Shown here: positions 5,702-8,755 of the stretch, in pieces
Layout: each line of letters begins with the position of its first letter
Position numbering within the stretch: position 1 is the stretch's first letter
Notes under the pieces: generated by a model
Seen by the model: only the letters and a program-made list of their open reading frames with translations
Databases searched by the model: none
What the model was told of the DNA's origin: nothing
Source of the DNA: an uncultured Fidelibacterota bacterium
GTDB taxonomy: Bacteria; Marinisomatota; Marinisomatia; Marinisomatales; UBA1611
Length of the DNA: 8,852 bases
Assembly: GCA_913045415.1 (NCBI GenBank)
Contig: CAJWPW010000029.1
Coordinates: 1-8,852 of the forward strand
Direction: 5' to 3'
Program-made: the position numbers and the translations under genes

Positions 5702-6295
5702 ATGAACTCCATCACACAAAACTTTAGATCAAAACTCTTTGCCGGGATTGCGGCTGCACTGCCATTATTCCTGACTTATGTTTTATTGGAATTTTTATTT
5801 ATCACTTTGGATGAAATGTCTGCTCCCATCCTTGATAAAATGGGATGGGAAATTCCCGGACTTGGAATTGTGCTCACATTACTCCTAATATTTTTTCTTG
5901 GGGTTCTGGTAACTAACTTTTTAGGTCATAAGATTTTCAGTATTGGCGAACGTATCGTTAAAAAAGTCCCTGTTGTAAATACGATTTATTCAACTCTGAA
6001 GCAAATAACAGAAACATTTACAAAAGGAACTTCAGATACATTCAAGGCTGCTGTTTATATCCAATATCCACGAAAAGGACTATGGACCATGGCCTTAATT
6101 AGTGGTGAATCAAAAAGCAAAGATGGGATTCCTTATTACCATTTATTTATTCCTACGACACCAAATCCTACCTCGGGCTTTTTTATCATGATTCCCCAAG
6201 CGGATGCTGTCCCTACGGGAATGTCAGTAGAAGAAGGACTTAAAACGATCATTTCCGGTGGGTTGCTTGCTCCGGAGGAGAATCCACTTCCTTAG
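5702..6295 (+). CDS. DUF502 family membrane protein
   Basis: This 197-residue inner-membrane protein has two predicted helices (about 12-34 and 53-74) separated by a short loop, then a soluble domain of about 120 residues. Conserved DUF502 stretches are RIVKKVPVVNTIYSTLKQI (84-102), LFIPTTPNPTSGFFIMIP (148-165) and MSVEEGLKTIISGG (174-187). The family is widespread in bacteria and related to the plant COV/LCV membrane proteins. Its biochemical role is not established. The basic N-terminus (K11) and helix spacing suggest the soluble part faces one side of the membrane as a unit; orientation is not settled. It starts a unit with the fatty-acid-kinase fusion 20 bp downstream and plsY after that, so a role in membrane lipid supply is a reasonable but untested guess. 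A small inverted repeat (ACGAA 5681-5685, TTCGT 5691-5695) lies just before the ATG. Confidence 0.88.
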   Translation: MNSITQNFRSKLFAGIAAALPLFLTYVLLEFLFITLDEMSAPILDKMGWEIPGLGIVLTLLLIFFLGVLVTNFLGHKIFSIGERIVKKVPVVNTIYSTLKQITETFTKGTSDTFKAAVYIQYPRKGLWTMALISGESKSKDGIPYYHLFIPTTPNPTSGFFIMIPQADAVPTGMSVEEGLKTIISGGLLAPEENPLP

Positions 6296-6315: not shown

Positions 6316-8100
6316 ATGCAGATCAAATACATTGATGGTCCACGGCTCCTCAGGGCAATCCAAGCCGGGATTAATCACGTTATCACCCGGAAGGATTACC
6401 TGAATAAAATTAATGTGTTTCCTGTCCCTGACGGTGATACTGGAACTAATATGGCCTTTACACTGGCTACTATTTCTGAAGAAACAAAATCAAATAATAA
6501 TAAACAAGTTTCGAAGGTAGCTGATGCAGTTGCAGATGCATCTCTAAATGGCGCAAGAGGGAATTCCGGGTCTATCCTCGCTCAATTCTTTGTAGGGTTT
6601 GCTGATGGAATTGGATCCTTTCGAAGACTTACGCCAGAGCAATTTTCTGAAGCCACTAATACAGCAAAAAATTATTCTTACGATGCATTATCTGAACCAA
6701 TAGAGGGCACCATTCTTTCCGTCATTTCAGATTGGGCAGATTCGATTAAAAACATTTATAAGAAGCATGATGATTTTGTCATGATCCTGGATTTTGCTTT
6801 TGAACAAGCGAAAGAATCCTTACGGAAAACACCGGAAAAATTGGCAATCTTAAAAAAAGCCGGTGTGGTGGATGCAGGGGCTCAGGGATTTGTGGATTTC
6901 CTGGAGGGAATCAATCATTTTATCAAGCAAGGCGAAAAAGATGATGTAGACACCTCCACAATTGCCGAACCGGTGGATAATTTTGAAGTGGAAATGACCG
7001 ATGAATTTCGCTATTGCACTGAATGTCTTGTGGCCGGAGATGATATCGACCGGATCAAACTCAAAGAACAATTGATGAATCTGGGTAGCAGTATCGTTCT
7101 TGCCGGTTCCAAAAAGAAAGCAAAGATCCACATTCATACTAATGACCCACAGGCGGTTTTCACCTTGGGGCACGAATATGGAACTCTTAGTGGCGAAAAA
7201 GCTGACGACATGCTGAAACAGCAAAAAGATGCTCATGGGAGCCATGAAGAAATTGCAATTGTGGTAGATTCCGGCTGTGACCTTCCTGAAGATCTCATTG
7301 ATGAATTCAATATCCACATGGTGCCCGTTCGTCTGAATTTTGGAGATGAACACCATGTGGACAAGGTTACCATCACCTCAGAAGAATTCTGGCACCAACT
7401 CCAAACCAACTCTATCCATCCGCAAACTTCTCAGCCAACACAGGGTGATTTTCGGCGACAATATCAGTTTTTAACCGGACATTATAATAATGTCATATCG
7501 ATCCATTTACCCGCATCTGTAAGTGGAACCTTACAATCAGCGACACTGGCTGCGAGAGATGCAGAAGATTTACCCATTGAGCTAATCGATTCTCAAAACG
7601 GTTCAATAGGTATCGGGTTGATTGCTCTTAGGGCAGCCGAAGCAGTTAAATCAGGAAAGGCTAAAGAAGATATCTTGAAAATTATTCATCAGGCCGTTGA
7701 GAATACCACCATTTATATCGGATTGGAGACACTGGATTATGTGGTGAAAGGAGGTCGATTGTCTGCCAATAAAAAGAAAATCGCCAATTTGCTTCAAATT
7801 AACCCAATTCTCTCCTTTGCCTTGAATGGAATCAATTCAATAGGAAAAACTTTTGGGTCCAAAAATAAGGCAGAAAAACTAGTAAAATTTGTTTCATCAA
7901 AATTACCGGATGGTCCTTATCGAGTGGGTTTAGCCCACGGAAATGCCTTGGAACTCGCTGAAAATGCCGAACATCATTTTGAATCTTTGGGAGCAGAAAA
8001 AGTAATCTCTACCGAGATCGGGCCAGCACTAGGCGTACATGCAGGTCCACAAGCACTGGTGATTGCCGTCCAATCGTTAAAGGATGATCTCTATGAATAA
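6316..8100 (+). CDS. fakA-fakB: Single-chain fatty acid kinase: DhaL (FakA-type) kinase fused to DegV (FakB-type) fatty-acid-binding domain
   Basis: Fatty acid kinase phosphorylates a fatty acid held by FakB to give acyl-phosphate. In Firmicutes FakA and FakB are separate proteins; here both lie in 594 residues. Residues 1-200 are a DhaL/DAK2 ATP-binding domain: FPVPDGDTGTNM (35-46) carries D39 and D41 for Mg-ATP, NGARGNSGSIL (78-88) is the next nucleotide loop, and VVDAGAQGF (184-192) is conserved. Residues about 222-305 match the FakA middle domain, with FRYCTEC (231-237) and IHIHTNDP (271-278) as probable zinc ligands. Residues 312-594 form a complete DegV domain (283 residues, versus about 288 for FakB1). 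It has T371 in TSQPT, S403 in SVSGT, R481 in KGGRLSA and H575 in HAGPQALVIA, at spacings matching the FakB fatty-acid carboxylate site. The usual FakA C-terminal domain appears absent, with DegV in its place. plsY overlaps the 3' end. A dihydroxyacetone kinase role is unlikely because no DhaK part is present. Confidence 0.9.
   Translation: MQIKYIDGPRLLRAIQAGINHVITRKDYLNKINVFPVPDGDTGTNMAFTLATISEETKSNNNKQVSKVADAVADASLNGARGNSGSILAQFFVGFADGIGSFRRLTPEQFSEATNTAKNYSYDALSEPIEGTILSVISDWADSIKNIYKKHDDFVMILDFAFEQAKESLRKTPEKLAILKKAGVVDAGAQGFVDFLEGINHFIKQGEKDDVDTSTIAEPVDNFEVEMTDEFRYCTECLVAGDDIDRIKLKEQLMNLGSSIVLAGSKKKAKIHIHTNDPQAVFTLGHEYGTLSGEKADDMLKQQKDAHGSHEEIAIVVDSGCDLPEDLIDEFNIHMVPVRLNFGDEHHVDKVTITSEEFWHQLQTNSIHPQTSQPTQGDFRRQYQFLTGHYNNVISIHLPASVSGTLQSATLAARDAEDLPIELIDSQNGSIGIGLIALRAAEAVKSGKAKEDILKIIHQAVENTTIYIGLETLDYVVKGGRLSANKKKIANLLQINPILSFALNGINSIGKTFGSKNKAEKLVKFVSSKLPDGPYRVGLAHGNALELAENAEHHFESLGAEKVISTEIGPALGVHAGPQALVIAVQSLKDDLYE
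8079..8084 (+). promoter_or_regulatory. Possible Shine-Dalgarno for plsY
   Basis: AAAGGA at 8079-8084 lies eight bases before the ATG at 8093, a good distance for a ribosome binding site. For the alternative ATG at 8084 it would directly abut or overlap the start codon. It therefore favours 8093. The bases also encode Leu-Lys-Asp of the upstream protein, and the other genes here lack such a motif, so the match may be fortuitous. Confidence 0.35.
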
Positions 8101-8755
8101 TCCGAACCTTATTTTAATCTTGATCCTGTTTGCCAGTTATATCATTGGCTCTTTTCCCACCAGTATTATTATGGGACGAATCACAAAAGGTATTGATATT
8201 CGTGAGCATGGAAGTGGAAATGCTGGTGGTACAAATGTTTACCGTGTATTGGGCTGGAAACCGGCATTGGTTGTGGTTGTATTTGATATATTCAAGGGAT
8301 GGCTCCCTGCAGCGTATTTAGCCAAAATGTTCTTTGATGCAACTCCACTTCCGGATCTGGGACTTTTTCAAATATTATGTGGGTTTTGCGCTGTTTTAGG
8401 CCATACCTATACAATCTTTGCAGGATTTAAGGGTGGTAAAGGTGTGGGCACCTTGGCCGGAATGCTTATTGCTATGTTCCCTCTTGCTGTGCCACTTTGT
8501 ATGCTGGTTTTTGCAGTTACTTTAATGCTGACAGGTTATGTGTCTGTGGGATCCATTATCGCCAGTACTTCCCTCCCGGTATTATTACTGACGCTGCCAA
8601 TTATTGGGATTGAGCCTGCAGAACTATCACTTTTGATTTTTAGTTTGATGGTTCCATTTTTCATTATCTATACCCATCGCTCCAATATTTCCCGACTTCG
8701 AAACGGAAAAGAAAACCGTTTTGAGAAAGCAATGATCTTTAAAAAGAAATCCTAA
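8093..8755 (+). CDS. plsY: Acyl-phosphate:glycerol-3-phosphate acyltransferase PlsY
   Basis: PlsY is an inner-membrane enzyme that transfers an acyl group from acyl-phosphate to glycerol-3-phosphate, giving lysophosphatidic acid, the first step of phospholipid synthesis. It is 220 residues from the chosen start, with about seven membrane helices. All three PlsY motifs are present, numbered from this start. HGSGNAGGTN (39-48) is motif 1, followed by VYRVLG. GHTYTIFAGFKGGKGVGT (103-120) is motif 2, with the phosphate-binding GGKG. HRSNISRLRNGKENR (195-209) is motif 3. In motif 2 the usual proline after the aromatic residue is threonine, and the usual VAT ending is VGT. An in-frame ATG at 8084 would add three residues and lengthen the overlap with the upstream gene from 8 to 17 bases. 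I prefer 8093 for the AAAGGA at proper spacing, without certainty. Overlap with the fatty acid kinase gene suggests coupled translation and supply of its acyl-phosphate substrate. Confidence 0.95.
   Translation: MNNPNLILILILFASYIIGSFPTSIIMGRITKGIDIREHGSGNAGGTNVYRVLGWKPALVVVVFDIFKGWLPAAYLAKMFFDATPLPDLGLFQILCGFCAVLGHTYTIFAGFKGGKGVGTLAGMLIAMFPLAVPLCMLVFAVTLMLTGYVSVGSIIASTSLPVLLLTLPIIGIEPAELSLLIFSLMVPFFIIYTHRSNISRLRNGKENRFEKAMIFKKKS

Follow-up and report, generated by a model that had tools for sequence, protein, structure and literature searches.

A putative single-chain fatty acid kinase with FakA-type and FakB-type domains in a Marinimicrobia-like bacterium and other Gram-negative phyla

Within the window (the whole stretch of 8,852 nucleotides of DNA that was analysed), a single gene encodes the kinase and middle domains of FakA followed by a complete DegV domain of the FakB type. 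As judged from its sequence, the product is very probably a self-contained fatty acid kinase that feeds PlsY and needs neither the FakA_C domain nor the docking of a FakB. In the bacteria studied so far, the kinase FakA and the carrier FakB are separate proteins. Both families were already known, and what appears to be new here is the one-chain architecture of Fak and its wide spread; no published description or biochemistry of a fused Fak was found in our literature searches (subscription papers lay outside their scope). The host is Marinimicrobia-like: the named close homologues come from Candidatus Marinimicrobia, the nearest named locus (L033) belongs to a Candidatus Neomarinimicrobiota bin, and the nearest genome in our sample contains the window protein at 97% identity. 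A plasmid similarity search with the window gave no match.

Domains and conserved residues of the fused chain

The chain of 594 residues is encoded by an uninterrupted frame, in which Pfam domains were identified in the order Dak2, FakA-like_M and DegV (Table 1). The earlier note had described one frame of 594 codons with a DhaL domain, a FakA middle domain and a full DegV domain carrying T371, S403, R481 and H575, and this description was confirmed by the ORF, the Pfam matches and the alignment with SaFakB1. Its reading of the chain as a fatty acid kinase that unites kinase and carrier in a single polypeptide is also supported at the sequence level, as is its claim that DegV replaces the C-terminal domain of FakA: the DegV match is full-length, and the FakA-like_C model (PF13684) matched weakly, within the DegV part and below its cut-off (2.7e-4; 20.8 versus 23 bits). 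Thus, DegV stands in the window protein in place of the FakA_C docking domain ending in Glu548, and the carrier, being in the same frame, is not a separate diffusible FakB. The NCBIfam model of DegV (TIGR00762) scored above its cut-off (254.3 versus 99.7 bits), and those of FakA (NF038248; 194.7 versus 975) and FakB1 (NF038249; 123.5 versus 350), as well as YloV (TIGR03599; 304.8 versus 396.1), scored below theirs, so that the chain resembles one half of either family without being a complete member of it. A dihydroxyacetone kinase was rejected on the score of the DhaL equivalog (29.1 bits versus 138.3). Fifteen homologues with 75–97% identity over 99–100% of the length indicate that the fusion is more than chance. 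dN/dS was below 1 in each half of the window gene: compared with the nearest genome, from which it differs by few changes, the values were 0.18 for the kinase and middle domains and 0.06 for DegV, and compared with L033 (87% identity) they were 0.048 and 0.041, with dS (1.3–1.8) near saturation.

Table 1. Positions in the window of the fused gene, its domains and its same-strand neighbours
Feature	Positions	Strand	Remarks
DUF502 membrane protein	5702..6295	+	20 nt upstream of the kinase gene
Single-chain fatty acid kinase gene (FakA_N + FakA_L + FakB), putative	6316..8100	+	594 codons plus stop, ATG to TAA
DhaL/Dak2 ATP-binding domain, residues 36-199	6421..6912	+	Pfam Dak2, E 4.9e-39
FakA middle domain, residues 230-304, with C234/H272/H274	7003..7227	+	Pfam FakA-like_M, E 3.7e-20
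Short linker between middle domain and DegV, residues 305-312	7228..7251	+	Gap between two Pfam matches
DegV/FakB fatty-acid carrier domain, residues 313-585, in the position of FakA_C	7252..8070	+	Pfam DegV, E 4.4e-70, profile 2-277 of 280
F513, at the FakB Arg205 position (FakB docking residue for FakA_C)	7852..7854	+	Alignment
plsY, acyl-phosphate:glycerol-3-phosphate acyltransferase	8093..8755	+	Overlaps the kinase stop codon

In an alignment with S. aureus FakA_N, residues N33, D39, D41, T42, N83 and D186 correspond to Asn32, Asp38, Asp40, Thr41, Asn82 and Asp185 of SaFakA, of which Asn32, Asp38, Asp40, Thr41 and Asp185 are assigned roles in ATP-Mg binding (PMC9136124). C234, H272 and H274 align with the C and HxH motifs of S. 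suis FakA (Cys240, His282 and His284 in SaFakA numbering). The role of this Cys-His-His site is disputed, as it is presented as a catalytic triad in PMC9136124 and as a structural zinc site in PMC11617999, and its conservation here would fit both a zinc and a catalytic role. In the carrier half, T371, S403, R481 and H575 fall on Thr62, Ser95, Arg173 and His270 of SaFakB1 (PDB 5woo; phmmer alignment), which form the network around the fatty acid carboxylate and the latch over it (PMC8892158). The DegV domain thus appears to retain both the carboxylate network of FakB (T371, S403 and H575) and the catalytic Arg173 (R481). N33, D39, D41, T42, D186, C234, H272, H274, T371, S403, R481 and H575 were all invariant in an alignment of 22 fused homologues, comprising the window protein and 21 others that are 36–83% identical to it. 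A scan of genome contigs yielded at least 592 relatives, the best 80 of which all had both halves in one frame (hereafter the best 80). When the window protein was added to these, R481, C234, H272, H274, N83 and D186 were kept in all 81 rows, and N33, D39, D41 and T42 in 80 of 81, the remaining row having a gap. The fused chain therefore shares with FakA (YloV) of Staphylococcus, Streptococcus and Bacillus the DhaL and middle domains together with the ATP-Mg and Cys-His-His residues, and differs from it in having a full FakB where classical FakA has its docking domain.

Occurrence of the fusion within and beyond the phylum

The earlier note had suggested that DhaL-DegV fusions might exist elsewhere, which was borne out: among the best 80 of at least 592 relatives, the fusion was found to be common across Gram-negative phyla and not a local oddity. 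These 80 represent at least 10 phyla, including 27 Pseudomonadota, 13 Fidelibacterota (Marinimicrobia), 12 Bacteroidota and fewer from each of the rest (Acidobacteriota, Aminicenantes, Cloacimonadota, Chlorobiota, Calditrichota, Gemmatimonadota, Spirochaetota, Caldisericota and others); since the fused form served as the seed of the scan and relatives were ranked by their similarity to it, such figures show where the fusion occurs and not how often. In two of the 80 (L079 and L093), the frame runs off the contig inside the DegV part. L079 and another metagenome bin (L075) are titled Klebsiella pneumoniae and Janthinobacterium lividum, respectively, and their fusions group with uncultured Gammaproteobacteria in the kinase-half tree, so these species names may be wrong. 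Where fused homologues carry a name, it is DegV family protein, DegV family EDD domain-containing protein or hypothetical protein, and our results suggest a likely function for proteins named in this way only. Among the matches listed, one separate FakA, from Anaerophaga, was named fatty acid kinase. Classical FakA with FakA_C was also found in Bacteroidales and Marinimicrobia, and is thus not confined to Gram-positive bacteria. FakAB has been called a Gram-positive strategy (PMC10146087); the fusion places a Fak-type enzyme in many Gram-negative phyla, and separate FakA of Bacteroidales was already present in databases.

We also analysed 149 genomes of the phylum, with DegV matches in 90 and Dak2 matches in 89 of them. 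By pairing the two lists by contig, strand and a frame length of at least 400 amino acids, 89 Dak2-first fusions could be identified in 82 genomes. As most records are metagenome assemblies, it might be suspected that the assembly is wrong or that two adjacent genes were joined by chance. However, the fusion is present in the strain genomes of Arenimonas oryziterrae DSM 21050 (L092) and Ancylomarina euxinus M1P (L110), the spacing between the Dak2 and DegV matches is 331–358 nt in all 89 genes, and in the tree of each half one branch parts fused from separate forms (see below). In our view, the strain genomes and the spacing refute this explanation, and the probability left to it is negligible.

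The distribution of the fusion in the phylum is patchy: 67 of the 149 genomes lacked a same-frame fusion, at least one of them from the same genus as the host. A clear FakA_C (E under 1e-30) was present in 11 genomes, 7 of which also had the fusion. PlsX was found in 118 genomes and PlsY in at least 125. One genome that is 93% complete (G121) and seven listed genomes of the same family had neither a DegV nor a Dak2 match, and the enzyme therefore seems dispensable. In addition, genes of the AMP-binding (acyl-CoA/ACP-synthetase) superfamily occurred in all eight genomes examined, so the fused kinase need not be the sole route of fatty acid activation.

Another explanation is that the DegV half is a mere docking scaffold like FakA_C, and that the fatty acid is delivered by a separate FakB. 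In favour of this, FakA_C resembles FakB in structure (PMC9136124), the Pfam FakA_C model weakly matches some fused DegV domains (best E 6.6e-11), and 12 of the 82 genomes with a fusion have another DegV match (7 of them together with a classical FakA). On the other hand, the remaining 70 have no other DegV match, and in the nearest genome (86% complete) one DegV and one Dak2 were found, with no match to FakA_C or to a second DegV. Furthermore, FakA_C lacks three tunnel elements that FakB has (PMC9136124), and these elements appear intact in the fused DegV, as do the carboxylate residues: the segments 27–62, 164–185 and 264–273 of FakB are occupied at 0.97, 1.0 and 1.0 in the window protein, and for each of them at least 217 of 220 fused rows show a filling of 80% or more. 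A mere scaffold is thus very improbable, and we favour a working carrier.

Gene neighbourhood and the probable ligand

The enzyme PlsY uses acyl-phosphate, and its gene directly follows the fused gene in the window. The listed frame of plsY opens at 8084; the ATG at 8093, preceded by AAAGGA (8079–8084), is the more likely start. It gives an overlap of 8 nt with the kinase gene and lies 8 nt from the end of AAAGGA. Upstream of the kinase gene lie genes for DUF502, ogt, an EamA transporter, secF, secD and an aminotransferase-fold protein (Pfam), and the first of these is perhaps co-transcribed with the kinase gene. Among the same-strand upstream neighbours of fusions (53 of 54 ORFs scanned), 11 of 53 matched the T2SSB family (Type II secretion protein B) and 10 of 53 matched DUF502. 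In the phylum sample, plsY was located on the same strand within 800 nt downstream of at least 71 of the 89 fused genes, with some of the others near contig ends. Nine classical loci (L113–L121) were fetched from the 11 genomes with FakA_C, and in these fakA and fakB are adjacent to each other and immediately precede plsY. The classical fakA of these nine loci is thus placed beside plsY like the fusion in the window, and the fusion stands at the site of the pair. Among the best 80 of at least 592 relatives, plsY was adjacent in 23 loci (12 Fidelibacterota, 3 Pseudomonadota, 2 Calditrichota and six others) and absent in 49 with at least 800 nt of flank; 8 could not be judged. Where plsY was not directly downstream, DUF1295/steroid-reductase-like membrane proteins made up 10 of the 27 scanned same-strand downstream neighbours, and they are a possible second lipid partner of the fusions.

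Such neighbours could also point to a kinase chain that makes a different acyl-phosphate, the ligand of its DegV half being not an ordinary fatty acid but some other carboxylate or lipid. The head-group positions other than the docking arginine vary more than expected: in the best 80, the position of H575 held another residue in 14 fusions (11 Asn, 2 Tyr and 1 Gln; 2 further rows had gaps), including Asn in 10 of the 12 Bacteroidota, and the position of T371 held Ser in 13. The head group may therefore differ in some lineages. However, among 119 close homologues of the window protein, Thr was kept in 118, Ser in 119, Arg in 119 and His in 118, each of the four was present in 21 of the 21 other rows of the fused alignment, and plsY overlaps the window gene. 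We consider a different ligand unlikely, and an ordinary fatty acid remains the preferred substrate. In the stand-alone DegV rows of the phylum (L003, L011 and L113–L121), Tyr occupied the His270 position in 3 of 12 and the Ser95 column was unsettled, so head-group binding may be different in the phylum's separate carriers.

Docking arginine, trees and proposed mechanism

Arg205 is described as completely conserved in FakB and as the key residue for binding FakA (PMC8892158); its docking site is near Glu548 of FakA_C, and the R205E exchange in FakB1 raises the KM (PMC9136124). In the window protein, this arginine is replaced by F513, a replacement that the earlier note did not mention, nor did it mention the plsY overlap. 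Stand-alone DegVs had R or K at this position in 130 of 131 cases (R or K in 12 of 12 from the phylum and R in 118 of 119 homologues, with 1 Leu; one of 120 was dropped for length), and R was also present in 3 of 3 PDB chains. By contrast, R was found in 5 of the 80 fusions that were the best of at least 592 relatives, and 73 had another residue (Phe 42, Leu 10, Ile 9, Pro 4, Trp 3, Met 2 and Ala, Val and Tyr one each; 2 gaps). Neither R nor K occurred in the 21 rows of the fused alignment (1 gap) or in the 119 close homologues of the window protein (one of 120 dropped for length), 113 of which had Phe; these counts are not independent, because the latter two sets have 7 rows in common and the rows are related by kinship. 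The five fusions among the best 80 that keep Arg belong to Pseudomonadota (3), Spirochaetota (1) and Gemmatimonadota (1), and the last of these (L098) is the first-branching fused row as drawn in the kinase-half tree, so the arginine may have been lost after the joining. Since Arg205 also touches the membrane in published simulations, its loss may change membrane docking as well. Compared with SaFakB1 (PDB 5woo), the fused carrier shares the complete DegV domain, the four head-group residues and the tunnel elements, whereas it is part of the kinase chain and, in most members examined, has Phe or another hydrophobic residue in place of Arg205. The claim of the earlier note that the carrier is no longer shared is therefore supported in part: it agrees with the arginine replacement in most fusions examined and with the 70 genomes that have no DegV match besides the fusion, and is weakened for the 12 that have another; the tethered carrier may also still meet PlsX, PlsY or the membrane.

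In the kinase-half tree, 50 fused and 28 classical sequences fell on two sides of one branch (bootstrap 100, SH-aLRT 97; 99% of 200 bootstrap trees). The classical rows came from 8 of the 9 classical loci (L119 unused), 19 of 120 listed homologues and one S. suis FakA, the single Firmicute FakA in this tree. In the carrier-half tree, made by a quick search and with a long-branch warning, the same number of fused sequences was split from 29 stand-alone ones (12 of the phylum, 14 of 119 homologues and 3 PDB chains) with SH-aLRT 96. The fused rows of both trees were 41 of the best 80 (L095 left out on purpose), 8 of the 21 alignment rows and the window protein. As the trees are unrooted, joining and splitting look the same in them. 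We hold the chances to be evenly balanced that a single old joining (or splitting) set apart two classes of fatty acid kinase: the separate FakA and FakB known from Gram-positive bacteria, and a one-chain form found across many Gram-negative phyla, with a tethered carrier, no FakA_C and, in most lineages, a hydrophobic residue instead of the docking arginine. It is even conceivable, though a guess given the unrooted trees, that FakA_C, a tunnel-less FakB-like domain, arose by decay of the carrier in an ancestral fused enzyme. Profile comparisons of FakA_C found nothing with the fused DegV set (probability 1.0 of 100, E 0.055) or with stand-alone DegV (0.7, E 0.079), and such a descent is therefore not argued from these data.

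We infer the activity, the route of the lipid and the transfer in cis or in trans as follows. The DegV (FakB) domain would take a fatty acid from the membrane into its tunnel and hold the carboxylate by T371, S403 and H575 under R481, while the DhaL domain would bind Mg-ATP and the middle domain would dimerise the protein and carry the Cys-His-His site. The tethered carrier could then swing the exposed head group to a DhaL site, either in the same chain or in the dimer partner, and the acyl-phosphate would be handed to PlsY, the product of the overlapping next gene, giving lysophosphatidic acid. With the carrier covalently bound, FakA_C as the docking domain for FakB would not be needed, in line with the replaced docking arginine. 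A comparable protein is S. aureus FakA_NL, which also has the kinase and middle domains without FakA_C and is an active Fak when FakB is supplied, with a KM for FakB1 that is 11-fold higher (0.99 versus 0.09 uM; PMC9136124). Unlike the fusion, FakA_NL is a laboratory construct, to which FakB was added as a separate protein; tethering could supply the affinity that is missing without FakA_C, and a fusion would be the expected outcome if FakA_C serves only as a dock. In a rival published model, which comes from the S. suis FakA-FakB work behind PDB 7w7h (as described in PMC11617999), FakA_C and FakA_N form the pocket. As the fused enzyme has no FakA_C, this model would not apply to it as it stands, except if the DegV half were to take on the two roles together.

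Activity of the one-chain form would mean that a kinase lacking FakA_C altogether occurs naturally. This would favour the published model of head-group presentation to the kinase domain by FakB itself over that of a fatty acid moving into a FakA_C/FakA_N pocket. The mechanism could be tested with one purified polypeptide, and a covalent complex should lend itself to crystallography or cryo-EM more readily than a weak pair.

A fusion in the reverse order was also observed in the phylum, in a chain of 787 amino acids with DegV at residues 4–307 followed by Dak2 at 344–511 (L122:1217–3577, minus strand; L123:1890–4250, plus strand). Like the usual form, it has DegV and Dak2 in one frame and no FakA_C match, whereas in L122 the docking arginine is kept, along with the Cys-His-His and Arg173 positions, and no plsY was present among its three Pfam-scanned neighbours. 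The C-terminal end of the reverse fusion had no tool match and may be PAS-like. A quick kinase-half tree that included L122 had a very long branch (4.68), with support of 0 for the fused and 93 for the classical sequences. The two genomes belong to one genus, and both also have the usual fusion.
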